From assembly GCA_030737835.1 (NCBI GenBank), contig JAUJYN010000020.1, positions 2,604,001 through 2,668,000 of the forward strand: a DNA stretch of 64,000 bases, written 5' to 3'. Each line of letters begins with the position of its first letter. Position 1 is the first letter of the stretch. The DNA is from Acorus gramineus. Its lineage: Eukaryota > Streptophyta > Magnoliopsida > Acorales > Acoraceae. This document shows, one piece after another, positions 11,988-44,644 of this stretch. Under the pieces are notes generated by a model that saw nothing but the letters and a program-made list of their open reading frames with translations, was not told where the DNA came from and searched no databases. A program made the translations under genes and the position numbers.

Positions 11988-11992
11988 ACTTT

Positions 11993-15190: not shown

Positions 15191-15227
<37 letters not shown>

Positions 15228-17555: not shown

Positions 17556-17659
17556 CCATTTTTAGGGCTGAGAGTGGTCTTGGTAGTGGTGGTGTTGGTG
17601 GTGGCGATTTGGTGCGCGAAGGGCACCCGAGTTCCTCCCTTTGTTCTTCCTCTCTTTGG

Positions 17660-18225
17660 GTAAGTTTTCCTCCTCCCCTAGCCAGTTTAGGTGCTTGTTT
17701 AGGGTGTGTGATTGGGGGGTGGGGGAGGGCTGAGGAGGGGGTGGAAGGGGCTCGGGCACGCGTGCGGAGTCATCCGCGCGTGTGCGCGCGTGTCTGCACG
17801 CGCAGTCGGGCGCGCTGGCAGGTGCGCGAGGGTACATGCAGTCGCGCGGGCGTGCGCGCAGGCGTGCACGCGGAGTGCTGCGCAAGGGCACAGTACGCGC
17901 AGGGCTGGACACGCAGTGCGCGCAGGCGCGCGAGCGTGCGCGCGCGGGGCAGCGCGTCTGGGCGCGCGGGCAAGGGCACGGCAGTGTGCCCGGGGCGCAG
18001 GGGCACGTGCGGGCGTGCGCATTCGTGCGTGCGCGTGCGGGGGGCCATGCGTATGGCTGCCCGTGGGTTCGGGAGGGTGTCGGGGCACTCGGACTCGCGT
18101 GCGTACGCGCGTGCTGGCGTGCGTGCGGGCCCGTATGCATGCTTGTCCGAGTATTGGGTATTTCTAGTAAATTTCTTATGTATTTGTGTAGTTTACTCAC
18201 CATATTGAATGTCCCTGTCTTGCTG
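17660..18225 (+). other. Predicted LTR intron 2, GC-rich form
   Basis: Donor CTTTGG/GTAAGTTTTCC. The acceptor reads CTTGCTG/ATCTTGACGG, mutated from CTTGCAG, which is intact in the other B copies (28411 and 40550). The middle is the alternating GC block. Confidence 0.55.
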
Positions 18226-18261
18226 ATCTTGACGGATGGTCATGTAGCGACCCGGGTTTCG

Positions 18262-19081
18262 GTGAGTGGGACAATCAAACCCAGTGGGGAGGCGTTCGAT
18301 GCACGTAGGCGTGCATTGCCCTCCTTTGGGGCACCATAATTGTGTATTAACATGTATGATTATTATGTTGTATCCATGCCACCTTAGACTTTGCATGCTA
18401 GGGATATGCACTCATATATCATGTATAGAGGCCTATGCATGCCTAGAGACCATGTCCCTTGATTGGAAACCCCCGAACTATGCATGTTCCCATCTAGTTT
18501 AATCTAATTAAATCAGAATGAGAGCATATAGTTATAAGCATGCCTTAGAGAATATTATAACCTTGTTGTTATAATATATGCCTCCTCGCATCTTGGTTAT
18601 GCGCCCTGGAGGAATTCTTGGGAATTCATGACATTATTTATTGTTACAAATCGTTGTCGACGGATCCATGAGGATCATATCCGTGTGAGTAGGCTGTCTT
18701 CTCCTTTTGGTTGGATCCGATGTAGGAACTCCCCGGCGTTGGCTGACCTGACAGAGGGCTCCCGTCCGTAGGTACCTCCGATGTGTCGGACAGTACTGAT
18801 AGTGGGAGTGGACTAGGTGGAGGCTACGAGGGTGGGAGAGGCTACCGGGTGGACCAGGGGTGGAGAGCGGTCTAGTATGCCCCAAGAGGCCCATGTCACC
18901 CCCAGTAAAGGGTGAGGGTGAGGGGGGGAGGTGGGTTGGCGATGAAACGACCCACTAGAATGTGTTGTTGCTCCCGTTTTAAGGGGCTATAAATTATTTA
19001 AGGTTAATATGAATTGTGATGCATGGGTTGTGCTATTCACTGAGCGTGTGGCTCACCCCTCGCATATATTTTTTTCTCTAG
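18262..19081 (+). other. Predicted LTR intron 3
   Basis: Donor TTTCG/GTGAGTGG and acceptor TTTTTTTCTCTAG/TTATATC. In family A the same boundaries read GTGAGTGG and TTTCTTTTCAG/GGGCAG. Confidence 0.5.
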
Positions 19082-20041
19082 TTATATCTGAGTCAGATCT
19101 GAAGGAGGAGCTCCTCGAGGCACCACAGCAGTAGCGGAGCAACGTCACGTTCTGCGAGTGAGAGGCCATCAGCACCCCCTTTTGATTGTATGTATTGTTA
19201 TCCGTGCTTGGGCACATACTTGTATTTGGATGTCATTGTATATATATTGGCTCTCACAGGACAGTTGATTATGTATCGGGTCTGTAATATGTCTTTGAAT
19301 TACAGACTCAGTTGTTTGAGCTTCCGCTATTTGTATATATTATGTCAGCTACCTTATTGTCTGTGTTGTCATTTTTGATGTTGTTTAGAGTATGTTATTG
19401 ATCTCCTGTATAGACTGCTGATATTATATATACCTGCCGCGTCTCGAGGACGGCCACCCTGGGGCGTGACAATACCGTTGGTCGAAGAGACACGGAATTA
19501 CTGGTCCACACAACACTACTGGATCACCAACCTCACCCTCACCCTCACTCCCAGAGGGAGACTCTTGGGACTCTTGGGGAGAGACCATACGGTTGGTCGA
19601 AGAGACCCGGAATTACTGGTCTACACAACACTACTGGATCATCTACATCGAGATAACTGCCCAATGATGTCTTTGAACATCGATACGCAACTGGACCCAA
19701 CAACTATGGGAACGGACAAACCACGAATGGGTCACGCAGCGATGTGTCTTCACCTCATCCTCACCCTCACCCTTTAGAGGTGACATAGGACTTTTAGAGA
19801 GATTAGACTCCTCTACACCCTTGGTCCACCGGTAGCCCTTTCCCCGGGTAGTCTCTACCTAGTATACTCCCACGATCAGTACGCTTCCAAACGCATCGGT
19901 AATACCTACAGATGAGAGCCCTCTCTCAAAAAAGCTTTTCCAGCGTTGGGGAGTTCCTACACGGATACAACGAATGGGAGAACGATTCCACGCTCGCAAT
20001 ATCATTCGTTAGGCCTCTCCCGGGTAGCCTCTACCTGGTAT

Positions 20042-23000
20042 TGTCACGCCCCAGAGCGGCCGTCCCCGAGACGTGGCAATAATAAAATATCAGCTATCAA
20101 TACCTGAGGTCAAATAAAGACTCCAACAACAACAGAGAAGCTGGCAAAGCAAGGATAATGATAACTGACTGAAAAGCGGAAGCATAATATATAAACAATT
20201 AATTATACCAAAAACATTATTACAGACTCGAATACACAATCACTGTCCTGTGAGAGCCAAGTCTAGATCAAAGAAAATACAACCTGTGCCACATGCACGA
20301 TTTACAATACATACAATGACTCTAGGACTGCTGACAGCCTCGCACTCGCCACCCACCGGAAGAACGCTCCACGCCCATAAGACCACGCCACCGGAAAGCT
20401 CCAGCTCCACGCCCAACACTGCCCCTGAAAAGAAACAGTATGCGAGGGGTGAGCTACAAGCTCAGTGAGTGGCTGGAAACCAATCACCATACAACAGTTC
20501 AATACATAAACAATTCCCTTTCAAGGTAAACATGGGTGGAAATCCATGGATAACAGAGTCACGCGGCGGTGCGACCAACCTCAACCTCACCCTCACTCCC
20601 GGAGAAAGACTCTTGGGGCTTTTGGGGAGAGACCATACCGTTGGTCGAAGAGACCCAGAATTACTGGTCTACGCAACACTACTGGATCATCTACATCGAG
20701 GTAACTACCCAACGATGTCTTTGAACATCGATACGAGACCGGACCCAACAACTATGGGAACGGACAAACAACGAATGGGTCACGAGCCGATGTGTCTTCA
20801 CCTCGTCCTTACCCTCACTCCCGGAGGGAGACTCTTGGGACTTTTGGAAGAGACTTAGACTGCTCTACACCCTTGGTCCCCCGCGTAGCCTCTACCTGGT
20901 ATACTCCCACGATCAGTTCGCTTTCGAACGCATCGATGGTACCTACGGATGGGAGCACTCTGTCAGGACCGCTTTTCCAACGCCGGGGAGTTCCTACATT
21001 CGATCCAACAAAGGGGAGAATGATTCCACGCTCGCAATATCATTCGTTAGCCCTCTCCCGGGTAGCCTCTACCTGGTACACTCCCATGATCAGTACGCTC
21101 CCGAACGCATCGGTGGTACCTACGGATGGGAGCCCTCTATCAGGACAGCTACAACCCGGGCCTCTTCATCACGGACGACATTGGGAGTAAACATTCCATG
21201 TTCGCAAAGCGAACCCAATAGAAAAACAACTACTCTCGATAATCACTTATCGATATATCGAATACTACTGTACTCCCACACCATTGCGTCGCTCAGACAC
21301 AAAGGGGGTTGCCTCTGCTCTCACGTAGAAATAATCCCATAAGCTAATGAATTCTCCTGAATTCCGAATGAGTGCATCGCTAGGATGCACGGGGCGATTA
21401 CATCGCTAGCGCTCTAACTAATAAGGTACAACCCGACAGCGGGTCATACCCACGCCTATTTCAGATAGGCCTATCAGTTTTTAACATGCGCATATAAATA
21501 TATCCAACTATGTGCATGAACCATATGCACAATCATCTAATAATTATAGGGACACTCCCTAACATGGATTTACATCATAATAAATCATACAACATGCATA
21601 CATGGTCATTAATCACAAGGCCTAACTTAAGCATGCGTTGGATATAGCCAACTTAAAAGAAAGGGTCAAGCGCGATCTCGCGCACTAACAGGTGCATGCC
21701 AATATTCCAAACAAACCTGAGTCGAGTAGGAAATCGCATCTACTTACTCAGTTCGTTCAGAGGGAGAGGGCGAGAGAGATCATCATCTCATGAAGCTGGT
21801 CATAGCTTTGCCCCATTAGCATGGGCGCAACAGCTACACCACGCCCTCGAGTCTTATCGCAAGGGAATATTAGGCAGGTGCATGTTATTAACCCAGACTT
21901 AATCATATTGTATATTCCCATTAATATGGTGGGAGTAGTATTACAATACCACCTAAGACATGCCATATTCTATACATCCATACACATTTACAACATACAT
22001 GCCCATACTAGAGGGGCTCATGCAACACAATCATTTATACATGAATACAATACATGTATATAAGCCTAGCATGCAAGATATCTACATATTACAGCTTATG
22101 CATGGCCATACTACTTATCTACACAAGTAGTATAGCTAGGGGGGCCCATCGATGCGCGACGCGCGTCTACGCGCGTCGAGCGCATCCCGAGAGGGGGGGG
22201 GATTGGATCGAACCACTCACCGATACCCGGATCGCCGCGCGTCCGGTCTACGAGATCTGCAAAACACAACCAATGATCCATAATTAAATTATGGAACCTC
22301 CTATCACACATATAAGCTTACTTCATGAAGACCCTAACCCCTGATACTTCCATATTATCACCCAAGACACATGCAACCAACTCCTTGACACTCAACCAAG
22401 CAAAACTGCTAAACCTGCTGCAACCAGCCCTACTAATTGGTCTTCACAGCACCCAATACACTTCCAAAAATTATGCAATAAATCATGCACATTCTATGAT
22501 ATGCTGGGATCATAATCCATGAAGACATTAGAACCTAATTTTGCCTCTACAAGCCCGAAACAAATTATTTCCAGAAGCAGGTCAATTCCTATGCGAATCT
22601 GGACAGGCCATACAAAACAGGTTCTAACTTACAACACAGATATCATAATGACCCCAAATTTCATATATAACATCTAGACACATAGATGATCAAATCATAA
22701 GAAGACATAATCCTAAAAATATGCCTCTAAATACTAGATTCACTGAGATCTTTAAAAGACAGTGAGCTGCCTTACCGAAACAGGGGGAGGGAATTGGGGA
22801 GATGCGGGGTTCTCGACACACCCACGACCACCTCAACCACCACCACCACTACCACCACCTCCTCAGCCACTCCTCAAGCCTTTATTGGCTGAAAACAGGG
22901 GTGGGGAAGAGGCATGAGAGGGAGTTAGAGAGAAGGGAATCAAGCACAAACAACAACACCTAAAGCTTGCACACACATACCTTCTCTTTTCCTTTTAATG

Positions 23001-23549
23001 TTTCTTCTTCTTCTCCTTCTTTTTCTACTTCTCTTTAACACTCAAAACAAAGAAAACCAGGGAGTGAAGGAGAGAGTGAGAGGGAGAGGATGTGAAGGGG
23101 ACGCCCAAACATAGTGTACACACACACACACTCACACACACACACACATTAAATGGTGAAAAAGGGGGTGGGTGAGGTTAGACTAAGTCAACCTAGCCAA
23201 GCTAAAAAACAAAACTCAAAGACTTGTCAAAGTTCATCTTTGACCTGGGTCAAAGTCTTCATTGACTTGGTCAAAGTCTCCCCTTTGACAATCCAGTATC
23301 GACCAAAACCCGGAACTGCATATTTTTTTCCAACCACTATTGAAATTCGATGAAATTTTTATGAGTTGCTCAAAATGGCACCAGAACTCATAATATGCGG
23401 TTAGATTTTCAATCAGAGCACTCTAACTCCCGTAGGTGGCTAAAAGCCAAAATTTTAGCGGCTCCAATCGAAAAAATTAAAAAGACCCTGAATGACCCAG
23501 AAGTGACCAAGGCTTAACCGAAATGGCTCCAAATGACACAAGCATAACA
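20042..23549 (-). mobile_element. Solo LTR, family A variant, nested in LTR A-4 (3508 bp)
   Basis: It begins on the minus strand with TGTTATGCTTGTGTC and ends with GGGGCGTGACA. The host resumes on each side (ACCTGGTAT before, TATACCCC after), but only TAT is shared, so the duplication is imperfect. Predicted introns are intron 1 at 22889-22980 and intron 2 at 22257-22775 (519 bp, AT-rich form: donor TTTCG/GTAAGG, acceptor TTTTGCAG). The intron 3 acceptor CTTTTCAG near 20427 is intact. Its start region carries the CCATTTCGGTTAAGCCTTGG variant also seen at 31150 and 45875. A CA-repeat lies at 23111-23149. Confidence 0.85.
22257..22775 (-). other. Predicted LTR intron 2, AT-rich form (519 bp)
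   Basis: This sits at exactly the same exon boundaries as the GC-rich intron of other copies: exon 2 ends near GAACCCCGCATCTCCCC and exon 3 starts ATCTCGT. The sequence between is unrelated and AT-rich. Donor TTTCG/GTAAGGC and acceptor TTGTGTTTTGCAG are both near consensus. The copy at 24854-25372 has the same length. Confidence 0.65.
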
Positions 23550-26375
23550 TATACCCCCCCCATGATCAGTACATCTTGCCGCATGCATCGATAGTACCTA
23601 CAGGTGGGGGCCCTCTGTCAAGACAGCTACAACCTGGGCCGCTTCAACACGGACGACATTGGGAGGAAACATTCCATGTTCGCAAAGCGAACCCAATGGA
23701 AAAACAACTACTCTCGATAATCACATATCGATGATATCGAATACTATTGTACTCCCACACGGTTGCGTCGCTCGGACACAAGGGGGTTGCCTCTGCTCTC
23801 ACGCAGAAATAATCCCAAGGCACATAACCCAACAGGCGGTTCATATACACGCCTAGCACGGGTAGGCCTAGCTTAATGCCACAACTACCGGCTTAACAAA
23901 CTGATAAGATAATGAATTCTCCTGAATTCCAAACGAGTGCATCGCTCGGATGCACGGGGGCGATTACATCGCTAGCGCTCTAACTAATAAGGTACAACCC
24001 GACAACGGGTCATACCCACGCCTATTTCAGATAGGCCTAATCAGTTTTAACATGCGCATATATATCCAGGAGAATTATATTTTAGTTATGTACATGAACT
24101 ACATGCACGATAACCTATCAAATAATTATAGGGATACTCCCTAACATGGATTTACATCATAAACAATAAATCATACAACATGCATACATGGCCATTAATC
24201 ACATAAGCACACAAGGCATAACTTAAGCATGCGTTGGATATCACCAACTTAAAAGGGAAGGGTCAAGCGCGATCTCGCACACTAATAGGTGCATGCCAAT
24301 ATTCCATACGAACCCGAGTCGAGTAGGAAATCGCCTCTACTTACTCAGTTCGTGCAGAGGGAGAGGGCGAGAGAGAGATCATCATCTCTTGAAGTTGGTC
24401 ATAGCTTTGCCCCATTAGCATGGGTGCAACAACTACACCACGCCCTCGAGTCTTATCGCAAGGGAATATTAGGCAGGTGCCCATTATTAACCCAGACTTA
24501 ATCATGCTGGATATTCCAATTAATATGGTGGGAGTAGTATTACAATACTACCTAAGGCATGCCCTATTCTATACATCCATACACATTATAGAAATACATG
24601 CCCATACTAGAGGGGCGCATGCGATACAGTCATTCATACTTGGATACAATACATGCAATATAAGCCTAGCATGCAAGATATCTAACATATTATAGTTTAA
24701 GCATGGCCATACTACTTATCTACACAAGTAGTATAGCTAGGATGCCCCATCGATGCACGACGCACGACTACGCGCGTCGAGCGCATCTCGAGGGGGGGAT
24801 TGGATCAAACCACTCACAGATACCCGGATCGTCGCGCGTCCGGTCTACGAGATCTGCAAAACACAATCAATGATCCACAATTAAAATATGGAACCTCCTA
24901 TCACACATATAAGCCTACTTCATGAAGGCCCTAACCCCTGATACTTCCATATTATCACCCAAGACACATGCAAACAACTCCTTGACACTCAACCAAGCAA
25001 AACTGTCAAACCTGCTGCAACCAGCCCTACTAATTGGTCTCCACAGCACCCAATACACTTCCAAAAATTATGAAATAAATCATGCACATTCTATGATATG
25101 CTAGGATCATAATCTATGAAGACATTAGAACCTAATTTTTCCTCTACAAGCCTGAAACAAATTATTTCCAGAAGAAAGTCAATTCCTACGCGAATCTGGA
25201 CAGGCCATGCAAAACTGGTTCTAACTTACACCACAGATATCATAATGACCCCACATTTCATATATAACAACTAGACACATAGATGATCATATCATATGAA
25301 GACATAATCCTAAAAATGTGCCTCTAAATACTAGATTCACTGAGATCTTTAAAATACAGAGTGCTGCTTTACCGAAACAGGGGGAGGGAAATGGGGAGAT
25401 GCGGGGTTCTCGACACACCTACGACCACCTCAACCACCACCACCACTACCACCACCTCATCAGCATCTCCTCAAGCCCTTCATGGCAGAAAACAGGGGTG
25501 CAAGGGCATGAGAAGGGGATTGAGAGAAGAGAAACAACAACAACAACACATACTCACCTTTTCTCACCCTTTCTCACTCTTTCTTGTGCTTCTTCTTCAT
25601 CTTTTCCTCCATTAACAACACACACACAATAAAAAAAAGCAGAGAAGGAGAGGGAGACGAGAGTGAGAGAGAGTGAGAGGTTTCCACAAAAAGGGGGCTT
25701 TAAATGGAATTAAAGTGAGTTGGTGGGGGGGGGACAAGACCAAATCGTCCCTGACCAGAAATTCTGGATGGGCTTCACTAGAACAGCCATAACTTCCACG
25801 ATATAGCTCCGAATTGCACAATTCAAGATCCTTTGGAAAGCCAAGAAGCTTATCTACAACTTTCATGCTTATTCCAAGATCAAATAATCCCTCCAGCTAT
25901 TCCGAAATGAGAGCTAAACATTGAACAGGGCTGCTGTCAGAATTTTCTCATCCCCGGGGTATACTTGAAAAAATACCCATAACTTTTACTACATGAATCC
26001 AGTTGATCTAATTCCACTTTTGTATGAAAGCTAACTCAAAACTGAGCATTTCATGATAAAATCATATTTAAACCTCTTCATCTTGGATTTTAACAAAATT
26101 AAATCCAAATACCAAATCGGAAATGCATAACTTCTAGGAGAAAAATTATGTAGCCAAATTTTCAATCAGAGCACTCCAACTCCTGTAGGTAGCTAAAAGC
26201 TAAAATTTTAGCGACTCTGATAAAAAATAAGGCTCCAAATGACACAGGCATAACATTCTCCCCCCCTTAGGAAATTTAGTCCTCGAAATTTAAGGAAACC
26301 CAAAGGGAAGACCGAATGTAGCAAGTATCACGCATAGACCTTTTGCTTCCAAGTGGTCCATGCACCAGACTGGCG

Positions 26376-27006: not shown

Positions 27007-29892
27007 TGTCACGTCCCAGGGCGGCCGTCCCCGGGACGCGGCAAGTGTATATATGATATCAGCAGTCTAAACAGGAGGTCAATAATATACCCTAAACAAC
27101 ATCAACAATTTCAACACAGACAACAATGAAGCTGACATGATATATACACGAATAGCGGAAGCTAAAAGACTGAATCTGTAACTCAAAGACATATTACAGA
27201 CTCGATACATAATCAACTGTCCTGTGAGAGCCAATATATACAATGACATCCAAATATAATACAAACGTGTGCCCAAGCACAGGTTACAATACATACAATC
27301 AAAAAGGGATGCTGATAGCCTCTAACACTCACGGAATGTGGCGCTGCTCCGCTACTGCTGAGGTCCCTCGGGGAGCTCCTCCTCCTGATCCGACTCAGAT
27401 AACACTGGAGAAAAATATATGCGAGGGGTGAGCCACACGCTCAGTGAATAGCATAACCCATGCATCACAATTCATATTAACCACAATCTCATTATTCAAG
27501 CCTCAAAGTGGCAAGAACTACATAATCCAGTGGGTCGCTACATCACCGACCCACCACACCCTCACCCTCACCTCCAATAGGTGACATAGGATATTGGGAC
27601 TAACTAGGCTGTTAATCACCCTTGGTCCACCAATAGTCTCTCCTCCACTCCGTAGTCCGCCTGGTCTACTCCCACTTTCAGCACAGTCCGTCACCAAATC
27701 AGAAGGTGCCTATTGATGGGAGCCCTCTGTCAGGACGGCTTGTCTAACGCTGGGGCAGTCTCTATACGGATCCAACGAAGGGAACAGAAACAACCTATCC
27801 ACACGTATACGATCCGCTTGGATCCGCGGTATTCCCTTAAGTGGAAAAAGAAACCTTCGGAGGGCACCATGAGGTCCCGATATAGGATATCCCGACAACC
27901 GAACAAGGAACACGGAGTACCCTAGCCCGGGTCTCAACGCTGACTTCGCAAGGCCCCTTAATCCAGAGAAGGGAGACTCTACTGGTGTCATGAATTCTTC
28001 AGAATTCCTCTAGGGCGCATAACCAAGATGCGGGGAACATATATAATAACCATCAAGTTATAATACTTACTAAGGCATGCAAAATACCATAAGTTCGCAT
28101 TTAATTTAATAAATTAAACTAATAGGACACATGCATAGGTCGAGGCTTTCCTAGCATGAAAACATGGTGACAGGATGCATGGCTCTTACACATATCCTAA
28201 GGGTGCAAGTCCCTAACATACAAGGTCTAGGGTGTCATGCATACTACATATTAATCATGCTTGCATAGACTACATATTATACAAGTTAATATTAAACTAT
28301 GGTGCCCCAGGGTAGGACGGTATACGCCCAAGTGCATATAGCGCCTCCCTACTGGGTTGGGTTATCCCACTCACCAATAACAGGGTCGTCGCGCGACCGT
28401 CCGTCAAGATCTGCAAGACAGGGTAATCAACTCGGTGAGTAAGATACACAAATATGACCAAAAATACACTAAAATACCCAACACTCGGACAAGCGTACAT
28501 ACGGCCCGTACGCACGCGAGTCCGAGCACCCCGACTCACCCGAACCCCCGAGCAGCCGTACGCATGGCCACCCGACCCAGGCGCACAGCCGCGCCCCAGC
28601 CCGCTCCCCCAGACGCACTGCCGAGCCCCTGCCCGCATGCCCGGACCCGCTGCAGAGCCCCCCGGGTGCACCGCGCGCTCACTGCGCCCCAGCGTAGCAT
28701 CTCGCGCGCACACCCGCACGCCCTGCGCCCCAACGCAGCACCCCGCGCGCACCCCGCGCGCACCACCCGCTCGCCTCACCGCGCGCGCACAGCACGCACT
28801 GCGCCTCTACGCAGCCCTCCGTGCGCACGCCCCCGCACGGCCCCCTGCGCGCAGCACCCGTACGCGGCCCCGCGCGCACAGCACGCACTGTGCCTCTGCG
28901 CAGCGCTCCGCACGCAAGCCCTCGCACGGCGCCCAACGCGCAGCACCCACACACCACCCGTGTATTGCACCTCCTGCGCAGCAGTCACGCGCACGCCCGC
29001 GCGCACGCGCGCGTGCCCTGCCAGCCTGCTCTACCCGCCCTGCCTGCCAGCCTGCCTGCCTGCGCTGCCAGCCTACCCGAGACAACCCTACCACCTCCCC
29101 GACGGCCACCAATGGCCACCAACAGCCACCAACAGCCATACATACCCAAAAACACCCTCCTAACATGCATCTAAACAAGAAAAGGAAGGAAAGAAACCTT
29201 ACCCAAGGAGAGGAAAGCAAAACGGGAGGAGATCGGGTGCTCTTCGCGCACCGAAATACCACCACCAAGGCCACCACCACCAAGCCTTCAACTCATCCTA
29301 AGAGGGGCTGAAACAAAGGAGAAAAGAGACCATGAGAAGGGGTCACACAAGAGGGAATTCGAATCCGAGACCATAGGAAGGTAGATCGGGTTCTTACCTA
29401 TCCTTTCTCTTCTTAGGGTTTTTGATTTTAACCCCTCTAGCTAGATCATATGGAGGAAAAAGAGAGGAGATGAGAGAGCTTGAGAGAGATGGATTTGGAG
29501 GAGAAGATGAATAGGGGGAGAACACTATAGGGGGGCGCCCACTTAAAGCTCTCACACACACACACACCACACACACACCACTTAACTTAACTAAATAATT
29601 AGGTTTAGGCTAGGATTAGTGAGGTTTAAGTGCACTTAGGTGAGGTTTGACCTTAGTCAACCCAACCACACTAAAATCCAAATTCATTTGACCAAGTCAA
29701 AGGTCAACTTTGACCAAGTCAAGTCTCCCAATGACTTCTCGCTCGGTCAAAACCCGGATACGCTTCGAAACTGTGAAATTCTGAAACGTTACCGGAATTC
29801 GATGAAATTTTTGTCAGTGGATGAAAAAGCTGAAAAACTGCCATAATGTTCCAATGGTTACCAGAAGGCTAAGAAGTGACACATATATAACA
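27007..29892 (-). mobile_element. LTR, family B, copy 2 (2886 bp, no clear duplication)
   Basis: The minus strand starts TGTTATATATGTGTCAC at 29892 and ends GGGGACGGCCGCCCTGGGACGTGACA at 27007 in conserved form. It interrupts internal domain copy 3. The five flanking bases differ (ACTTT and ACGCA), so no clean target duplication is present. Splice-like signals: intron 1 donor GATAG/GTAAGAACC near 29393, acceptor TTTGTTTCAG near 29308; intron 2 at 28411-29202 (792 bp, GC-rich). A CA-repeat lies at about 29550-29580. Confidence 0.85.
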
Positions 29893-31129
29893 ACGCAGGC
29901 ACTTAGCATGTCCTCCAAGGTCAGAATCGTCCTTTTGCTTGGCCATTCGTCGGCGGTGAAACGCTGCACTTAGATGGAGGCTCGCGCCAAAGCCTTCCAA
30001 GGCTGCGCCAAAACCTCAAAGTAACCCTCGCGTCTCAACCTGAAATAGCGCCGACCGGAGTGCCATGAAGACGAACAATCGCGAAGGTGGAAACCCACGT
30101 CAAGGAGTCCAGAGACTCAATCAGTCGGATTAGGGAGGGAAGCGCGGACTTAGTCAGTCGGTCATTGATCACCTAGACGGCGTCGCGACCTGAACGTGAC
30201 TTTAGCGAGCCCGCAACAATCCCTGATAACCCACTCCCACGTCCACTGAGGAATCTCGATGGACTGACGCTTTCCACTCAATGATGATTCTTGAACTTGC
30301 TTGAGGGCATGCCAACCTGGGGAAACAAGGTCACCCATATCGCCTTTTCAACGCACCACTAGCAATCTCAATGAAGACTACCTCAAAGTAGTCCACGGAG
30401 ACCCAATAAAACTTTTGAGATCCACGAAGGCATCCGGCGCATTCGTCAACCCCGACAGCAGTACTTAAAACTCGTAGTGCCTGAAACGGTCACGAAAGGC
30501 CATCTACGGGATGTCCAACTCCCGGATCTCCGACTTGTGGTACCCTTGTGCAAAGATTGATCTAACAGAAGACACTCGCTCCCAGAGCTGGTCAAATAGA
30601 TCATCAATTCATAGCAAGGGGTACCTGATCTTCAACCCTTACGGGAAGATCAAAACAACACCTCGAACAATTAAGTCCAGATTCTGCTCCTCGAGCATGG
30701 CTGGCGCTCATGATGACACTTACACGCTTGGTAAGCCGCTCAACCGCACTTAATCCACAAGACACGCAATAAGGGGGGTCGTCAAACCTCGACAATGCCT
30801 ATGCGACGTCATCTATCTGATAAGGCGGTTGAGTCCCATCACGAACGTTAGCATCGCATCTCCTCATTTGCGACCAATGTGGGGCAAAACGCGACAGTAT
30901 CCACAACTGTGCTTCACATGCCGCCAGAGATAGGTCGCTCAACTATAACCATTGAAACTCCAGCATCCTGCACACAATGGGCAGATTCATCACAGGGAGT
31001 CCACGCTCTCGACATCATCCAGTAGCACTCTCCCGGTGTGGCCTCTACCTGGTAGCCTCCCAAGCCCACTATCTCTGCCATATGGGCGCACCAACAAGCA
31101 TAGTATCTGGGAGCACCTCACAGGGCTCT

Positions 31130-34100
31130 TGTTATGCCTCTGTTATTTGAAGCCATTTCGGTTAAGCCTTGGTCACATCTGGGTCATTCATGGCCTTTTT
31201 CTTTTTCGATCGGAGTCGCTAAAATTTTAGTTTTTAACCACCCGCGGGAGTTAGAGTACTCTGATTGGAAATCTAACTACATATTATGGGTCCTGGTACC
31301 GTTCTGTACTACCCATAAAAATTTCATCAAATTCCGATAACGTTTTAAAAAATATGCAGTTCTGAATCGCATCCGGGTTTGGCCGTTACTGGATTGAGAG
31401 GTGAGAATTGTTTGTGCACGTCTAAGTGGGGATTTGATGTATTTTGACCAAGTCATGAAGCTCCTTTGTTTGTTTGTGTTGGTGAGGGTTGACAAGTCAA
31501 CCTCACCTAACACCTTTTTCTCCATTTAAAGCCCCAAAAATGTGTGTGTGTGTGTGCACTTCCCTCTCTCTCTCATTTGTGTGTATTGGGTGGAGAAGAA
31601 GGAGAGGGTTCATGAAGGAGGAAATGGAGGTGCTTGTAGAAGCCAAGAAAACATGAGGAGGGCTGTGGAGGTGGTGGTAGTGGTGGTGGTGGTTGAGGTG
31701 GTCGCGGGTGCATCGAGGGCCCCCGAATCTCCCCCTTTCATTCCCCCTCCCAAGATCTCGTCGGATGGGATGCGCGAGGTCCCGGGTTGCGGTGAGTGGT
31801 TTGGTCCAACCCCCCCCCCCCCCCCGAGATGCGCTCGATGCGCGTAGTCGTGCGTCGCGCATCGATGGGGCATCTTAGCTATACTACTTGTGTAGATAAG
31901 TAGTATGGCCATGCTTAAGCTATAATATGTTAGATATCTTGCATGCTAGGCTTATATACATGTATTGTATCCATGTATGAATGATTGTGTTGCATGCGCC
32001 CCTCTAGTATGGGCATGTATTTTTTTGTAATGTGTATGGATGTATAGAATATGGCATGCCTTAGGTAGTATTGTAATACTACTTCCACCATATTAATTGG
32101 AATATCCTGTATGATTAATTCTGGGTTAATAATGGCACCTGCCTAATATTCCCCTGCGATAAGACTCGAGGGCGTGGTGTAGTTGTTGCGCCCATGCTAA
32201 TGGGGCAAAGCTATGACCAACTTCATGAGATGATGATCTCTCTCGCCCTCTCCCTCTGAATGAACTGAGTAAGTAGATGCGATTTCCTACTCGACTCAGG
32301 TTCGTTTGGAATATTGGCATGCACCTGTTAGTGCGTGAGATCGCGCTTGACCCTTTCTTTTAAGTTGGTGATATCCAACGCATGCTTAAGTTATGCCTTG
32401 TGTGCTTATGATTAATGGCCACGTATGCAGGATTAAGTGGGCCATACCTTGTATGCATGTTGTATGATTGCTGTTTATGATGTAAATCCATGATTAGGGA
32501 GTATCCCTATGATTAATTGATATGTGATCGTGCATATGGTTCATGCACGTAGCTAAGATTTAATTCTCCTATAAAATATATGCGCATGTTAAAACTAATC
32601 AGGCCTATCTGAAATAGGCGTGGGTATGACCCGTTGTCGGGTTGTACCTTATTAGTTAGAGCGCTAGCAATGTAATCGCCCCCATGCATCCGAGCGATGC
32701 ACTCGTTTGGAATTCAGGAGAATTCATTATCTTATCGGTTTTGTTAAACCAGTAGTTGTGGCATTAAGCTAGGCCTAAGGCGTGTATATGAACCGCCTGT
32801 TGGGTTATGTGCCTTGGGATTATTTCTACGTGAGAGCAGAGGCAACCCCCTTGTGTCCGAGCGATGCAACCATGTGGGAGTACAATAGTATTCGATATCA
32901 TCGATATGTGATTATCGAGAGTAGTTGTTTTTCCATTGGGTTCACTTTGCGAACATGGAGTGTTTCCTCCCAATGTCGTCCGTGTTGAAGCGGGCCGGGT
33001 TAAAGCTGTCCTGACAGAGGGCTCTCATCCGTAGGTACCACTGATGCGTTAGAACCTAATTTTGCCTCTACGATCCCGAAACAAATTATTTCTAGAAGCA
33101 GGTCAATTCCTACGCGAATCTGGACAGGCCATGCAAAACTGGTTCTAACTTACACCACAAATATCATAATGACCCCACATTTCATATATAACAACTAGAC
33201 ACATAGATGATCATATCATATGAAGACATAATCCTAAAAATGTGCCTCTAAATACTAGATTCACTGAGATCTTTAAAATACAGAGTGCTGCCTTACCGAA
33301 ACAGGGGGAGGGAAATGGGGAGATGCGGGGTTCTCGACACACCTACGACCACCTCAACCACCACCACCACTACCACCACCTCATCAGCATCTCCTCAAGC
33401 CCTTCATGGCAGAAAACAGGGGTGCAAGGGCATGAGAAGGGGATTGAGAGAAGAGAAACAACAACAACAACACATACTCACCTTTTCTCACCCTTTCTCA
33501 CTCTTTCTTGTGCTTCTTCTTCATCTTTTCCTCCATTAACAACACACACACAACCAAAAAAAAACAGAGAGGGAGAGGGAGACGAGAGTGAGAGAGAGTG
33601 AGAGGTTTCCACAAAAAGGGGGCTTTAAATGGAATTAAAGTGAGTTGGTGGGGGGGAACAAGACCAAATCGTCCCTGACCAGAAATTCTGGACGGGCTTC
33701 ACTAGAACAGCCATAACTTCCACGATATAGCTCCGAATTGCACAATTCAAGATCCTTTGGAAAGCCAAGAAGATTATCTACAACTTTCATGTTTATGCCA
33801 AGATCAAATAATCCCTCCAGCTATTCTGAAATGAGAGCTAAACATTGAACAGGGCTGCTGCCAGAATTTTCTCATCCCCAGTGTATACTTTGAACAGGGC
33901 TTTCATATGCGTGGAGCGTTCTGTCCAGTGGGTGGCGAGTGCGAGGCTGTCAGCAGTCCTAGAGTCATTTTATGTATTGTAAATCGTGTATGTGGCACAT
34001 GTTGTATTTTATTTGGAATAGGCTTGGCTCTCACAGGACAGTGATTGCGTATTTGAGTCTATAATAATGTTTTTGGTTTACAAACATTGTAGATATCTTA

Positions 34101-34918: not shown

Positions 34919-37900
34919 TGTTGTGCCTGGGTCATTTGGAGCGCTCTGTTTGAAAAATTGGGTACATAATTTTTTTTCCTAAGTTATGTCTTTCCAATTT
35001 GGGTTTTTGATTTGATTTTGTTAAAATCCAAGATGAAGAGGTTTAAATATGAGTTTACTATGAGATGTCCAGTTTTGAGTTAGCTTACGCACAGAAGTGG
35101 AATTAGATCAACTGGATTCTTGTAGTAAAAGTTATGGGTATTTTTCCAAGTATACCCCGGGGATGGAAATTCTGGCAGCGGCCCTGCTCGATGTTTAGCT
35201 CTAATTTCGGAATAGCTGGAGAGATTATTTGATCTTGGCATGAACATGAAAGTTGTAGATAATCTTCTTGGATTTCCAACGGAATTTGAATTGTGCAATT
35301 CGGAGCTATATTGAGGAAGTTATGGCTGTTCCAGTGAAGCATGCGCAGAATTTCTAGTCAAAGGGCGACTAGGTCTTTTCTCCTTTAGATATTTGTGAGC
35401 TAAATATCACCTCTCTCTCTCCCTCCCATTTTTCCCACGACAACCTCATCTGGTCTCTCTTTCTCTCCTTCAAAGCCCCCCCCCAAGTGTTTGGTTTAAT
35501 GTCTCAATGAGAAGAAGAGAAGGAGATGGTGAAGGAAGAAGAGGGTTTGTTCATGTGTTGTTGTTGTTGCTTCTCTTCTCTCCTCTCAAGCTCCCTTTAC
35601 ATGATCTTTCCCCCCTGCAGCCATGGGAGGGCTGAGGAGGCTGAGGGGTGGTGGTAGTGGTGGTGGCGGTTGAGGTGGTCGCGGGTGCGTCGAGGGCCCC
35701 CGAACCTCCCCCTTTTGTTCCCCCTCCAAGGTGAGCTCCTCCCCTTCTTTTCTTGATTTTCATGGCTTAAGGGGATGTTGGGGAGGTCATGCATGCAATC
35801 TAGATGTGTTAGGGTGTGTGTGAGGGGTTGGGAAGGGTTAAAATGGGGTTAGGGCAAAGTGGGCGCGCGATGGGGGCTGTCTGCGCCCGGGCGAGCGCAG
35901 GCGCGCGTGCATGCGGGCGCAGGCGAGCGCAGGCGGGCGCTGGCGGGCGCGCAGACGCCGCGGGCGCGTGCGCGCGAGTGCGCGGGTGCGCGCGGAGTGG
36001 TCGCACGGGTGCGCGTGGGTGCTGGCGCGAGCGGGGGTGTGCGCGGGGGTGCGTACGGGAGTGCGCGCGAGCGTGCGCCCGCGCGGCAGTGCGCCTGGGC
36101 ATGTGCCTGGGCGCGGGGGCAGGATACCAGTGCGCGTGCGTGCGTGAGCGTGCGTACGCGTGCTAGGGCGTACGCGGGGTGCTGCGCGAGGGCGCGGGCT
36201 GGACGTGCAGTGCGAGCGGGCGCACGCGAGCGTGCGCGTGCATGCGGCAGCGCGTCTGGGCGCGCGGCAGTGTGCCAATGGTGCTAGGGTGCGTGCGTGC
36301 GTGCGCGTGCGGGCGGCCATGCGTGTGGCTGCCCGAGTGTTCGGGTAGGTGTCGGGGCACTCAGACTCGCGTGCGTACGTGCGTGCTCGCATGCGTGCGA
36401 GCCCGTATGCATGCTTGTCCGAGTATTGGGTATTTCTAATGTTTTCTATGTGTAAATTGTGTTGTTTCTCACCAGTTGGATTCCCCTACCTTGCAGATCT
36501 CGTCGGATGGGATGCGCGAGGTCCCGGGTCGTAAGGTGAGTGGTTTGATTCCAATCCCCCCCCCCTCTCTAGGGATGCGCTCGACCCGCGTAGACGCGCG
36601 TCGCGCATCGATGGGGCCCCCTAACTAATATGTAGATATTTGCATGCTAGGGATATACATCCACGTATCGTGTATAGAGGCCCGTACATGCCTGGACACC
36701 ATGTTCTGTACTTAAAAGCCTTGAGCTATGCATGATCAATATGATGTATCCATGCCACCTTAGACTTTGTATGCTAGGGATATGCACCCTAGTGTTGAGG
36801 ATAGAGGCCTATGCATCCTGATACAATGTTTTCATGCTAGGAAAGCCCTGAACCTACGCATGTTCCCATTTAGTTAATTTATTTAAATCAAGATGGGATT
36901 ATGTGAGCATATAGTTGGAACCATGCCTTAGAGAATATTATAACCTTGTTGTTATAATATATGTCTCCCCGCATCTTGGTCATGCGCCCTGGAGGAATTC
37001 TTGAGAATTCATGTCATTAGAAATGTTAGGAAGCGTTGTTGACGGATCCAAGAGGATCGCATGCGTGTGGGTAGGCTGTTCTCTTCCCTTCGTTGGATCC
37101 GTGTAGTACAGCCCCGGCGTTACATAGGCTGTCCTGACAGAGGGCTCCCATCTGTAGGTACCTCCGATGTGTACGGACAGTGCTGATCGTGGGAGTATAC
37201 CAGGTAAGCTACGGAGCGGGAGAGGCTACCGGTGGACCAAGGGTGATTAACAGCCTAGTCAGTCCCAAAAGACCATGTCACCCCTTTGAGGGTGAGGGTG
37301 AGGGTGTGGTGGGTCGGCGATGTAACGACCTAGTGGCTTGTGTAGTTACTCCCGTATAGGGACTATGACTACTTTAAGGTTAATATGAGTGTGTTGGTTG
37401 TTGTTATGCATGTGTGTGGCATCTCGATGAGCGAGTATCGAGAGTGGTGAGTTGAGGAGATCGGGTTGTAGATACTACCCGTGAGAGGGTTAATGAATGA
37501 TGTCACGAGCGTGGAATCGTTCTTCCCTTCGTTGGATCCGTGTAGTGACAGCCCCGGCGTTAGACAGGCTATCCTGACAGAGGGCTCCCATCTGTAGGTA
37601 CCTCCGATGTGTTCGGACAGTGCTGATCGTGGGAGTATACCAGGTAAGCTACGGAGCGGGGAGAGGCTACCGGTGGACCAGGGATGTAGAGCAGTCTAAG
37701 TCTCTCCCAAAGTCCCAAAATGTCTCCTTTCAGGAGTGAGGGTGTGGATGAGGCGAAGACGCGTCGCCTCGTGACCCATTCGTTGTTCGACCGTTCCCAT
37801 AGATGTTGGGTCCAGTCTCGTGATGGATGTTGAAGGACATCGATGGGCGATTATCTAGATGTAGATGATCCAGTAGTGTTGAGTAGACCAGTAAATCCGG

Positions 37901-38558
37901 GTCTCTTCGACCGACGGCATGGTCCCTAGACCAGTAAATCCGGGTCTCTTCGACCGACGGTATGGTCTCTCCCCATAAGTCCCAAAAGACTCCCTCCGGG
38001 AGTGAGGGTGGGGGGGAGGTTGGTCGCGCCGCCGCGTGACCCAGTGATCCTTGGGTTTTTACCCATGTTTTTTCCTTGGAAAAAGGGAACTGATTATGTA
38101 TTGAACTATAGAATGGTGATTGGTTTCCAGCCACTCACTGAGCTTGTAGCTCACCCCTCGCATATTGTTTCTTTTCAGGGGCAGTGTTGGGCGTGGAGCT
38201 GGAGCTTTCCTGTGGCGTGGTCTTATGGGCGTGGAGCGTTCTACCGGCGGGTGGCGAGTGCGAGGCTGTCAGCATTCCTAGAGTCATTTTATGCTTTGTA
38301 AATCGTGCATGTGGCAAAGGTTGTATTTTCTTTGGTCTAGACTTGGCTTCCACAGGCTATTGATTGTGTATTCGGGTCTGTAATAATATTTTTGATTTAC
38401 AGACATTGTTATATATTATGCTTCCGCTTTTCAGTCAGTTATCTTTATCTTGCTTTGTCGCCTTGTGTATTGTTGTTGGTGTCCTTATTGACCTCAGGTA
38501 TTGATAGCTGATATTATATTTTATTTTGCCACGTCTCGGGGACGCCTGGGGCGTGACA
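34919..38558 (+). mobile_element. Solo LTR, family A, copy 7 (3640 bp) with ATCCT duplication
   Basis: It starts TGTTGTGCCTGGGTC and ends GGGGCGTGACA. ATCCT is duplicated exactly at 34914-34918 and 38559-38563. It is the cleanest plus-strand model of the LTR. The intron 1 acceptor CCCCTGCAG ends at 35620. Exon 2 is 35621-35730, intron 2 is 35731-36496 (donor AAG/GTGAGC, acceptor CCTTGCAG, with GC block), exon 3 is 36497-36535, intron 3 is 36536-38178 (donor AAG/GTGAGTGG, acceptor TTTCTTTTCAG) and exon 4 is 38179-38558. Exon 2 contains only a 16-codon glycine-rich ATG frame. Confidence 0.92.
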
Positions 38559-39062: not shown

Positions 39063-42052
39063 TGTCACGCCCCAGGGCGGCCGTCCCCGGGACGTGACAA
39101 GTGTATATATGATATCAGTAAACAGGAGATCAATAATATACCATAACTAACAGCTAAAATGACAACACAGATAAAAGCAGGGCTGACATAATATATACAC
39201 CAAATGCGGAAGCTAAAAAGACTGAGTCTGTAATCAAAACATACTACAGACTCGATACATAATCATATGTCCTGTGAGAGCCAACATGTCCATATACACA
39301 CAAATACAATCCATACATAATCCAAACTAGGTGCCCAAGCACAGAAATATATACATACAACAAAGAGAAGGATGCTGATGGCCTCAAAACTCGAGGGACG
39401 TGGCGCTACTCCGCTACTGGTGTAGTCGCTCGGGAAGCTCCTCCTTCAAGTCCTCCTCGGTGATCACTGAAAAAGATTTTTATGCGAGGGGTGAGCCACA
39501 CGCTCAGTGAATAGCACAACCCGTGCATACAGTTTATATTAACCACAATTTATAGCAAAGAGCCTCAAAGTGGCATAATCAATCACAAGTCTGGTGGTTC
39601 GCTACATCGCCAAACCACCACACCCTCACCCTCACCCCTCAATAGGTGACAAAGGGTATTGGGACTTAATGGGCTGATAATCATCCATACACAATCCTGT
39701 GGGTCGTCGCATCGCCGGCCCACCATACCCTCACCCTCACCCCTCAATAGGTGACATAGGCTCTTGGGACTGACTAGGCTGTTGGTCACCCTTGGTCCAC
39801 CGATAGTCTCTCCCCACTCCGTAGGTCGTTTGGCCACCCCCACATTCAGCACAGTCCTTCTACCAAATCAGGAGGTGCCTACTGATAGGAGCCCCTGCAC
39901 GGGACAACTTTTCTAACGCTGAGGTAGTCTCTACACGGATCCAACGAAGGGAACAGAACAGCCTATCCATTGCATATGATCCACTCGGATCCGCTGACAG
40001 CACATCTCTACAACTCTAATGTCTTGAATTCTTTCAGAATTCCTCCAGCGCGCATAACCAAGATGCGGGGAAATAAATAAGATAAAAATGAGGAAAAGAG
40101 ACCTTGGGAGGGTAACCTGAGGTCCCGATGTAGGACATCCCGCCAACCAAACAAGGAACACGGAGTACCCTAACCCGGGTCTCAATGTTAACCTCGCAAG
40201 GCCCCCTTATATTCCCCAAGGCATGCTAATTAATATCACAGTTTGCATTTAAATAAATAAATCAAACTAATAGGACGCATGCATAGGTCAGGGCTTTCCT
40301 AGCATGATAACGGGGTGACAGGATGCACGGCTCATGCACATAACCTAAGGGTGCAAGTCCCTAACATACAAGTCTAGGGTGGCATGCATTCTACACATAC
40401 ATCATGCTTGCATGGATTATAATAAAACAGTTAATACTAACTATGTGCCCCAGGGGAGGACGGTACAAGCCCAAGTGCATGTAACGCCTCCGAAACTGGG
40501 TTGTCCCAGTTGATATCCTGTCTTGCAGATCGCGACCGTCCGTCGAGATCTGCAAGACAGGATATCAACTGGGTGAGTATAATCCACAAATACCCCAAAA
40601 TACACAAAATACACAAATAAATACCCAACACTCGGGCAAACGTGCATACGCCCCGTACGCACGCTAGCCCGAGCAGCCTGGCTCACTCCCGCACCCCCGG
40701 CAACCACCCGCACGGCCACCCGCCCCCGGATGCACCGCCGGGCCCCTGCCCGCCACCTGGACACGCCGTCCAACCTCCCGGGTGCACCGCAGGCCCCACT
40801 GCGCCCCAGCGCAGCGGCCCGCGCGCACCCTGCACGCCTCGCGCTGGCCCGCGAGCACACCGCACGCCCCGCGCGCCCAGCTCCTCGGCCCGCGTGCACC
40901 TCGCTCGACTCGCGCGCACTCCCCGTGCATCATCCGTTCGCACAGCTCTCCGCACCAGTCGCTCGACCAGCTCCTCACACCAGCCGCTCGACCAGCGCCT
41001 CCCGGGTGCACCCGCGCGCACTGCGCCCCTGCACGCGCGCCCAACACACCCGGCACGCCAGCAACCAGCACGCCCAGCGCTCCACCGACTCCCGCGCGCA
41101 CACAGCGTGCCTGCGCCCCTGCGCAGCGCTCCGCGCGCACCCTGCACGCACGCCCACTCAACCAGCACCCCGAGCACCCAGCACGCCCAGCGCCCACCCG
41201 AGCGCACGCCCGCGCGCACGTCCTTGCGCACGCACGCGCGCCCTGCCGCTGCACCTGCCTGAGCGCTGTTTGTGCTGCCTGCTACCCGGGACTGCCACCC
41301 TCTCTGCCCGAGCTCCTCTACCACCAACCACCAGGCCTCCGACGGCCTCCGACCGCCCCCAACCACCTCCGATAGCCTCCCACAGCCGCCGACCACCACC
41401 CAAACACAAAACCCCCTTCCTAACATACATCTAAGCCAAAAAGAAGAGGAAAAAGAGCTTACCAAGGGGGAGGAAGAGGTGTCCGGTTGCTCTCCGCGCA
41501 CCGAAACGCTCCCCCAACGGTCTCTACCACCAAGACCTACTCCCACCTCCGATTTGGCTCGGATCTGAGGAGAAGAGAGGGCGGATGGGAGGGCTAGGTT
41601 GGCTGGAATCGGGATTTGAAAGCACCGGGGTGTAGATCGGGACCCGATCTACACTTTCTATGCTTTAGGTTTTTGGGTTTGAGGGCTCTAAGGGGCTCAA
41701 ATCAAAGAAAAGGAGAGAGGGGAGAGAGAGATTTCATTTGGTAGGGATGATGAATAGTGGCAATCTAATTTTAGATCTCATTTATATAGCAAGTCACTTA
41801 AAAACCCGGATACACCCCGGAACTGCGAAATTTCGAAAACGTTTCCAGAATTTGATGAAATTTTCATGAGTGGTTTAGAATGGCACCAGGACACATAATA
41901 TGCAGTTAGATTTTCAATCGGAGTCCTCAAACACAGGACGATAGCTAACAGTCCAAAATTTTAGCGGTTCCGATCGAAAAATGAAAAAACTCAAAAACTG
42001 CTAAAATGCTCCAATGGTTACCAGCAAGCCAAAAAGTGACACATATATAACA
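39063..42052 (-). mobile_element. Solo LTR, family B, copy 3 (2990 bp) with ACCAG duplication
   Basis: The minus strand starts TGTTATATATGTGTCAC at 42052 and ends GGGGCGTGACA at 39063. ACCAG is duplicated exactly at 39058-39062 and 42053-42057. It interrupts the GC block of LTR A-6. Predicted intron 2 is 40550-41462 (913 bp; donor CCTTG/GTAAGC, acceptor CTTGCAG) with its own GC block. An unusual perfect inverted repeat at 40505-40573 spans the intron 2 acceptor. Confidence 0.92.
40505..40573. repeat. Perfect 27-bp inverted repeat with 15-nt loop
   Basis: Arms 40505-40531 and 40547-40573 are exact reverse complements, each containing ATATCCTGTCTTGCAG or its complement. The loop is 40532-40546. 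The sister copy near 28360-28420 lacks the left arm, so that arm is a newly made inverted copy of the splice-acceptor region. Confidence 0.95.
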
Positions 42053-44644
42053 ACCAGTGCAGGCGCGCGAGTGCGTGCATGTGCGTGCGCGTGCTGGGGC
42101 GTGCGCGGGGTGCTGCGCGAGGGCGCGGGCTGGACGTGCAGTGCGCGCGGGCGCGCGCGACCGTGTGCGCGCGTGCGGCAGCGAGTCTGGGCACGCGGGC
42201 TGGAGTGCGGCAGTGCGCCGATGGTACTGGGGTGCGTGTGTGCGTGCGCATTCGTGCGTGCGCGTGCGGGGGGGGCATGCGTGTGGCTGCCCGAGGGTTC
42301 GGGTAGGTGTCGGGGCACTCGGACTCGCGTGCGTACGTGCGTGCTCGCATGCGTGCGAGCCCGTATGCATGCTTGTCCGAGTATTGGGTATTTCTAATGT
42401 TTTCTATGTGTAAATTGTGTTGTTTCTCACCAGTTCGATGCCCCTACCTTGCAGATCTCGTCGGATGGGATGCACGAGGTCCCGGGTTGTAAGGTGAGTG
42501 GTTCGATTCCAATCTCCCCCCCCCCCCTCTCTAGGGATGCGCTCGACCCGCATAGACGCGCGTCGCGCATCGATGGGGCCCCCTAGCTATAATATGTAGA
42601 TATTTTGCATGCTAGGGATATACATCCATGTATCGTGTATAGAGGCCCGTACATGCCTGGACACCATGTCCTATACTTAAAAGCCTTGATCTATGCATGA
42701 TTAATATGATGTATCCATGCCACCTTAGATCTTGTATGCTAGGGAAATGCATCCTGACACCATGTTTCATGCTAGGAAAGCCTTGAACCTATGCATGTTC
42801 CCATTTAGTTTAATTTATTTAAATCAAGATGGGATTATGTGATTATATTGTTGTAAGCATGCCTTAGAGAATATTATAACCTTGTGGTTATAATATATGT
42901 TTCCCCGCATCTTAGTTATGCGCCCTGGAGGAATTCTTGAGAATTCATGACATTAGAAATGTTAGGAAGCGTTGTCGACGGATCCAAGAGGATCGCATGC
43001 GTGTGGGTAGGCTATTCTCTTCCCTTCGTTGGATCCGGGTAGAGACTCCCCACCGTTAGACAGGCTGTCCTGACAGAGGGCTCCCATCTGTAGGTACCTC
43101 CGATGCGTTGGACTGTGCTGATCGTGGGAGTAGACCAGGCGAGCTACGGAGTGGAGGAGAGGCTATCGGTGGACCAAGGGTGATTAACAGCCTAGTCAGT
43201 CCCAAGAGACCATGTCACCCCTTTGAGGGTGAGGGTGAGGGTGTGGTGGGTCGGCGATGTAACGACCCACTGGCTTGTGTAGTTACTCCCGTTTAGGGAC
43301 TATGACTACTTTAAGGTTAATATGAGTGTGTTGCGTTGCATAGTTTGTGCCATTCACTGAGTGTGTGGCACACCCCTCGCATATTCTTCTCCTCCAGAGT
43401 GGTAGTTGTTTCCATGGGGTTCGCTTTGTGAACATGGAATGTTCACTCCCAAGGTTGTCCGAGTTGAAGAGGCCGGGTTGTAGCTGTCCTGACGGAGGGC
43501 TCCCATCCGTAGGTACCACCGATGCAGTCGGAGGGGTACTGATCATGGGAGTATACCAGGTAGAGGCTACCCAGAAGAGGGATAATGAATGATATCGCGA
43601 GCGTGGAATCGTTCTTCACTTCGTTGGATCCGTGTAGTGACAGCCCCAGCGTTCCTGACAGAGGGCTCCCATCTGTAGGTACCTCCGATGTGTTCGGACA
43701 GTGCTGATCGTGGGAGTATACCAGGTAAGCTACGGAGCGGGGAGAGGCTACCGGTGGACCAGGGGTGTAGAGCAGTCTAAGTCTCTCCCAAAGTCCCAAG
43801 ATGTCTCCTTTCAGGAGTGAGGGTGTGGATGAGGCGAAGACGCGTCGCCTCGTGACCCATTCGTTGTTCGACCGTTCCCATAGATGTTGGGTCCGGTCTC
43901 GTGATGGATGTTGAAGGACATCGATGGACGATTATCTAGATGTAGATGATCCAGTAGTGTTGAGTAGACCAGTAAATCCGGGTCTCTTCGACCGACGGCA
44001 TGGTCTCTAGACCAGTAAATCCGGGTCTCTTCGACCGACGGTATGGTCTCTCCCCATAAGTCCCAAAAGACTCCCTCCGGGAGTGAGGGTGGGGGTGAGG
44101 TTGGTCGCGCTACCGCGTGACCCTGTTATCCATTGGGTTTCTACCCATGTTTTCCTTGAAAGGAAATTGATTATGTGTTGAACTGTAGAATGGTGATTGG
44201 TTTCCAGCCACTCACTGAGCTTGTAGCTCACCCCTCGCATACTGTTTCTTTTCAGGGGCAGTGTTGGGCTTGGAGTTGGCGCTTCCTATGGCGTGGTCTT
44301 ATGGGCGTGGAGCGTTCTGCCGGCGGGTGGCGTGTGCGAGGCTGTCAGCATTCCTAGAGTCATTTTATGCTTTGTAAATCGTGCATGTGGCACAGGTTGT
44401 ATTTTCTTTGGTCTAGACTTGGCTTTCACAGGACATTGATTGTGTATTCGGGTCTGTAATAATGTTTTTGATTTACAGACATTGTTATATATTATGCTTC
44501 CGCTTTTCAGTCAGTTATCATTATCTTGCTTTGCCGCCTTGTGTATTGTTGTTGGTGTCCTTATTGACCTCAGGTATTGATAGCAGATATGATACTTTAT
44601 TATATTTGCCATGTCTCGGGGACACCTGGGGCGTGACAGTGACA

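Follow-up and report, generated by a model that had tools for sequence, protein, structure and literature searches.

Long terminal repeats lacking leader introns in a retrotransposon family of Acorus gramineus: candidate fossils of splicing followed by reverse transcription

In the Ogre elements of plants (Ty3/gypsy), the intron is internal, lying between coding regions and outside the long terminal repeat (LTR). This and several other systems provide the closest comparisons. A 2025 review describes plant LTR elements as generally intron-less, names as notable exceptions EVADE and Ogre, the latter an intron-containing LTR retrotransposon with spliced transcripts, and mentions splicing of BARE1 (PMC12786077). 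The Ty1/copia elements BARE1 and EVADE have spliced beside unspliced genomic RNA, with their intron in or near gag (PMC3735527, PMC12786077), and attempts to amplify DNA copies of spliced BARE RNA from barley DNA did not succeed (PMC3735527). For Diaspora of soybean, donors were predicted in the LTR and acceptors near the start of gag; the 2005 paper gave these sites without evidence of use and held that no donors were known upstream of gag (PMC1142308). Beyond plants, the MLV SDARE is a natural spliced retroviral RNA that is packaged, reverse-transcribed and integrated (PMC10496198), and in a 1985 assay an intron-marked yeast Ty lost its intron on passage through RNA (PMC12786077).

The Acorus family described here resembles these systems in part. 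Its predicted introns, unlike those of Ogre, BARE1 and EVADE, lie within the LTR, and spliced DNA copies, which could not be amplified for BARE, are present in the Acorus assembly. The MLV SDARE has its donor in gag and loses coding sequence, whereas the Acorus family loses leader introns inside the LTR and does so in many copies; the intron of the yeast assay was artificial, whereas the LTR introns here are natural. A literature search found no report of LTR introns with spliced genomic copies, a weak negative result, as subscription journals were thinly covered.

An intron-less LTR within a nest of related elements

The window, that is, the whole stretch of 64,000 nucleotides analysed, is occupied over much of positions 1-49500 by a nest of LTRs from one family and a sister family. 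The family LTR begins TGTTATGCC and finishes GGGGCGTGACA, giving paired long terminal repeats with TG...CA ends. The primer-binding site TTGGTATCAGAG, which we take to be a match to initiator-Met tRNA, follows M1, M3 and one further LTR at 16274; the polypurine tract AAGGGGGGGAGAA stands before the 3' LTR, and polypurine tracts precede M2 and M5. Target duplications of 5 bp flank insertions across the family (GCAAT in the C64 element described below, GCTCT, ATCCT, GTGAC and AGAAC). Between M3 and M2 the internal region measures about 2.7 kb, with 43 stops in one frame. Pfam typing of five internal pieces gave one SH3_Tf2-1 match at E 0.027, below the cut-off, and none for the other four; the coding class may be that of a Ty3/gypsy chromovirus (Tekay/Del). 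The LTRs compared, and a coding frame elsewhere in the window, are as follows.

2036..5620, minus strand: LTR M1, with intron 1 (5001-4918) and intron 2 (4804-4285), primer-binding site next
6505..9243, minus strand: LTR M2, 3' end absent, introns 1 and 2 present, polypurine tract before it
11992..15777, minus strand: LTR M3, with intron 1 (15073-14993) and intron 2 (14881-14359), primer-binding site next
16878..19471, plus strand: sister-family LTR S1, both introns in the same positions, the acceptor of intron 2 altered to CTG
20042..23549, minus strand: LTR M4, with introns 1 and 2, intron 2 T-rich
23557..26255, minus strand: LTR M5 (partial), intron 1 acceptor altered to CTG, intron 2 kept, polypurine tract before it
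27007..29892, minus strand: sister-family LTR S2, introns at the same places
34920..38558, plus strand: LTR P2b, both introns present, target duplication ATCCT
39063..42054, minus strand: sister-family LTR S3, intron 2 at the same place
45848..49494, plus strand: LTR P5, intron 2 present, intron 1 altered at its usual donor, target duplication AGAAC
61304-62896: 530-residue PPR frame, 91% identical to an Acorus calamus protein, which places the plant in Acorus or near it

Two of these LTRs are nested within predicted introns of a further LTR spanning 34243-44638: P2b (34920-38558) lies in its intron 1, between ATCCT duplications, and S3 (39063-42054) in its intron 2, with an ACCAG duplication. 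At 40500-40570 on the minus strand, S3 contains an intron 2/exon 3 boundary with an inverted repeat of itself directly behind it, the two forming a fold-back with arms of about 27 bases.

The copy that lacks introns 1 and 2, hereafter P1, is laid out below with its surroundings.

31115..31129, plus strand: left flank of P1, in leader sequence of an element on the minus strand, with GCTCT as the target duplication
31130..33047, plus strand: P1, an LTR (U3 and putatively transcribed leader, truncated) without introns 1 and 2, recognised by its 5' end TGTTATGCC and by BLAST continuity with other LTR copies
31550..31642, plus strand: 3' part of exon 1 (start coordinate arbitrary), ending GTAGAAG as in the intron-bearing locus L031, where GTGTTTG comes next
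31642..31643, plus strand: exon 1/exon 2 junction, no intron 1
31643..31754, plus strand: exon 2, 112 bp
31754..31755, plus strand: exon 2/exon 3 junction, no intron 2
31755..31791, plus strand: exon 3, 37 bp
31792..31799, plus strand: GTGAGTGG, predicted intron 3 donor, retained in P1 and found in 11 of the 12 window LTR copies compared
33049..33894, minus strand: inverted LTR fragment M6, outside P1, 97% identical to M5 at 25125-25966
33901-34242: end of another LTR

The preliminary description had placed the two joins at exactly these coordinates and had given exon 2 as 112 bp against 113 bp in the copy at 20042, all of which we confirmed. Its spacing of 84-92 bp and about 490-910 bp between the same exon ends elsewhere became 72-92 bp for intron 1 and 490-913 bp for intron 2 when measured in ten other window LTRs, with intron limits fixed by hand-chosen anchors. 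We also corrected the extent of the copy, LTR continuity being limited to 31130-33047; M6 probably derives from the LTR of the host element itself. An Rfam search of 31100-34300 returned no matches. In exon 2, P1 (31657-31754) and M1 (4902-4805) have 98 identical bases in a row, most other matched stretches being about 89-92% alike, which may reflect constraint or recombination.

The 5' end of P1 is exact when set against the empty site of other elements (GGGCTCT/TGTTATG); it lies in the leader of another element, and the corresponding site in M1's element is empty. On the same contig, 51 kb to the left of P1, the locus L002/L032 shares this left junction exactly and is spliced too. What is apparently the right end of this sister copy falls inside the window:

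5621..6382, plus strand: right end of the apparent sister copy of P1's insertion, followed by GCTCT, with its left end at C58:2584103, beyond the window

A full M1 element, with LTRs at about -17490..-14219 and 2036-5620, interrupts the sister copy, which, with its GCTCT target duplication, looks like a solo LTR. The shared left junction, the spliced state and the GCTCT at the right end point to one insertion in two copies, so that P1 appears to be a duplicate of the sister copy's insertion, truncated at 33047. The M1 element itself is flanked by a 13-base rather than a 5-base repeat (window 5600-5650; L032 3980-4040).

Splice sites and exactness of the joins

Splice-site dinucleotides are conserved in the ten intron-bearing window LTRs. 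Intron 2 has GT in 10/10 and AG in 9/10 (S1 has CTG), and intron 1 has GT in 9/10 (P5 being the exception) and AG in 9/10 (M5 has CTG). For intron 1, the window copies fix the acceptor side only, and the donor side was settled by L031, an intron-bearing copy elsewhere in the genome that is near-identical to P1 in exon 1 and identical in exon 2. Its intron 1 reads GTAGAAG/GTGTTTG...ATTTTCAG/CCAAGAAAACATG and its intron 2 ...CCCAAG/GTGAGC...TTGCAG/ATCTCG. Over exons 1 and 2, P1 is thus the L031 sequence minus two predicted GT-AG introns, removed exactly at the putative splice sites.

The exactness of the intron 2 join was scored by sliding both deletion end points by up to 60 bases either way and evaluating all pairs. 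The splice-site pair was the single best of 14641 pairs against M1, P5 and M3 and of 14399 against M2; P2b was one base off through an indel, and M4 and M5 have diverged too far for the comparison. A repeat of two bases, AG, flanks intron 2. A background test for other GT-AG indels flagged none of 36 rows, a weak result given that the true intron 2 row was also missed through alignment register.

Composition counts against splicing: intron 2 is mostly GC-rich (62-69% GC, 20-24% T), which is unusual for a plant intron. Two unrelated sequences occupy the intron 2 site, a T-rich one (37% GC) in M4 (22775-22257) and M5 (25372-24854) and the GC-rich one (62-69%), with only the splice ends in common.

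The introns were present before P1 lost them. In the sister-family LTRs S1, S2 and S3, exon 2, intron 2 and exon 3 succeed each other at the same place, and S1 and S2 clearly have intron 1 too; the loss of intron 2 from P1 is therefore derived. In a small tree of ten rows, P1 falls among intron-bearing copies.

Spliced copies across the genome

We searched the genome (398.6 Mb) with a 361-bp query over the P1 joins, gaps allowed; 41 rows were listed, 40 of 3442 candidates were scored and 30 loci were read. All 30 of these best loci were joined exactly at exon 2/exon 3 (L029 apart from a one-base exon indel), in a set selected for the join because the query contains it. A pattern for the joined exon 2/exon 3 was then matched with at most three mismatches, giving 46 places, 45 of them genuine on reading, and the matching pattern for the unspliced intron 2 acceptor gave 3202 places; both reversed-pattern controls gave 0. 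The resulting ratio of spliced to unspliced copies, about 1.4%, is rough, as the acceptor is less variable than the ends of exon 2. Twenty-nine of the 46 places were already among the 30 gapped-search loci, and 16 of the other 17 proved spliced on reading; L058 was rejected, having kept intron 2 with a 2-base deletion at its acceptor. Adding L015, found by the gapped search only, brings the total to 46 spliced loci, which leaves out two gapped-search rows crossing the join (C58:2848577 and C60:1511490) and includes duplicates (P1/L002; L022/L023, with common flanks) and LTR pairs (L017/L027, L024/L025). Viral contigs yielded no junction, although records near this genome may be absent from them.

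The preliminary description had asked for several copies with an identical junction, which the 45 genuine places supply, and had named varying deletion end points as the contrary sign; there were none among the best 30 loci, a set that favours the junction, with gaps allowed.

Intron 1 is absent from 34 of the 46 spliced loci, kept in 10 and unscorable in two, and its absence from 34/44 scorable spliced loci compares with 0/17 in a scorable unspliced set (drawn from 22 loci: L031, L058 and 20 of 100 listed places among the 3202). These scores were hand-corrected by reading: L014 and L072 are unscorable, while L038, L040 and L058 had been mis-anchored and keep the intron. A pyrimidine score for intron 1 was dropped after leaving 24 of the 46 spliced loci unclear.

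Exon ends differ from locus to locus. Exon 2 of spliced loci ends in AAG, TAG, TTG, TTTTG, CAG and others, and AAG, TAG and TTTTG are also found ahead of GT in window copies that bear introns. At exon 1, five of the ends seen in spliced loci equal those of relatives that keep intron 1:

GTAGAAG: spliced P1; intron-keeping L031
GTGATG: spliced L024 and L025; intron-keeping M1
GAGAAAG: spliced L017 and L027; intron-keeping M2 and M3
AAAGAGAAG: spliced L066; intron-keeping M4
GCATGAAG: spliced L070; intron-keeping L015

Intermediate states also occur. L006 lacks intron 2 and keeps intron 1 with the acceptor CTG, as in M5, and in L008 and L028 exon 1 is joined five bases 3' of its usual end, which we read as probable use of a cryptic donor. 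L015, L019 and L063 retain intron 1 despite intact-looking splice sites, against a simple rule.

In the standard strong-stop scheme, a single RNA 5' end is the source of both LTRs, and a spliced state is accordingly expected to be shared by the two. The C64 element (L037 and L036), with LTRs of 3011 and 2990 bp, a primer-binding site, a polypurine tract and a GCAAT duplication, is missing both introns from both LTRs and is the kind of full element that the preliminary description had proposed to look for; its LTRs differ by 84 transitions and 36 transversions over 2973 sites (K2P 0.042). The C55 pair, L024 and L025, also lacks both introns in each LTR (95.9% identity over 1937 columns), with a polypurine tract before L025 and no target duplication found when looked for. 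No partner LTR was clearly found for spliced L010, L019 or L028.

A larger tree, built from 69 sequences with roughly 700 bp 3' of exon 3, requires 14 changes of intron state, 11 of them forced by well-supported branches; these counts carry an unsettled bootstrap, two retained rows with long branches and inflation by LTR recombination. Six spliced loci were omitted from it (L011, L012, L014, L016, L020 and L028), several having been long-branched or of odd composition earlier. L031 is like P1 in exons 1 and 2, yet its U5 groups elsewhere in the trees, from which it follows that the LTRs are mosaic. Recombination can spread the spliced state without fresh splicing, and our claim is of several independent losses, with no exact number.

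The third predicted intron is retained by copies that have lost introns 1 and 2: among the spliced loci that were read, exon 3 still runs into its start, with the donor altered in some (e.g. L061, L074). Candidate acceptors for intron 3 include the U5 block TTTCTTTTCAG, which is conserved in the sister family too, others nearby, and others in the leader before the gag-like start. No exact exon 3 join behind the first of these, the TTTCTTTTCAG block, was found in a search run without a positive control for sensitivity. In most LTRs, the part of U5 close to the 3' end (e.g. 12376, 20424) contains CACTGAGC..TGT.GCTCACCCCTCGCATA with a pyrimidine tract, and TGGCTCTCACAGGACAG; within the final 520 bp, these blocks are the best conserved from one family to the other.

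Origin of the spliced copies

The reading we favour, at a probability of roughly 94%, is that RNA of the LTR-internal leader has been spliced and occasionally packaged, reverse-transcribed and integrated. From sequence we infer the transcription start, splicing in living tissue and packaging. The leader would comprise at least three short exons; in the 5' LTR, the RNA would start within exon 1 or upstream of it, and introns 1 and 2 could be excised by the spliceosome. The bulk of the RNA that is replicated would remain unspliced, because nearly all counted copies keep intron 2. RNA without intron 2, and often without intron 1 too, would retain the primer-binding site and would sometimes be packaged and reverse-transcribed; strong-stop cDNA would take up the spliced leader, leaving the introns absent from both new LTRs, and the new copy would integrate with a 5-bp target duplication. 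P1 would be a duplicated and then truncated copy of one such insertion. The genome holds integrated copies that lack an intron exactly, as expected of a retroelement copied from spliced RNA, and the proposal of the preliminary description, that P1 is a fossil of splicing and then reverse transcription, is supported by the exact joins, the 45 places and the C64 element.

An improbable but not negligible alternative is that a resident LTR was altered by gene conversion or break repair from cDNA or RNA of the spliced leader, with no new insertion. This would likewise yield exact junctions, it suits the mosaic nature of the family's LTRs, and repair templated by RNA is reported for human cells (PMC12065846). 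It would still require spliced RNA, and in C64, where a target duplication is present and neither LTR has either intron, conversion would have to strike both LTRs. Deletion at the DNA level, by chance or through microhomology, draws on the AG repeat beside intron 2; equal microhomology, however, occurs in 2534 of 14641 end-point pairs (M1), too commonly to single out the splice-site pair, and 45 genomic places whose exon ends differ all have exact joins, the two introns are lost together and LTR pairs agree in state, so that we regard it as scarcely credible. We give as little weight to an ancestral intron-less state with introns inserted later: one intron 2 site does hold two unrelated sequences, but intron 2 stands at the same place in all three sister-family LTRs examined and spliced loci are interspersed with intron-bearing ones in trees, grounds on which intron insertion into other copies was rejected.

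Splicing and reverse transcription, as favoured here, bear on the open question of how retroelements separate spliced messengers from genomic RNA. Beyond the preliminary description, P1 is not unique, intermediate splicing states occur and the third predicted intron is kept. One answer to why intron 3 stays may be that its removal takes out the primer-binding site. It is possible, and we offer it tentatively, that leader splicing is the family's switch between messenger and genome, in which fully spliced RNA, having lost a packaging signal or the primer-binding site together with intron 3, could not be copied, unspliced RNA would be the normal template and loss of introns 1 and 2 only would be a leak. 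Failure of the separation would mark both LTRs of an element with a scar that can be dated, and the count of scars (45 against 3202) would give a rough genomic rate. Part-spliced copies with an altered splice site or a shifted donor would be natural splicing mutants, and, if the switch is real, the mix of part-spliced copies would record how efficiently, and in what order, splicing proceeds in the germ line.
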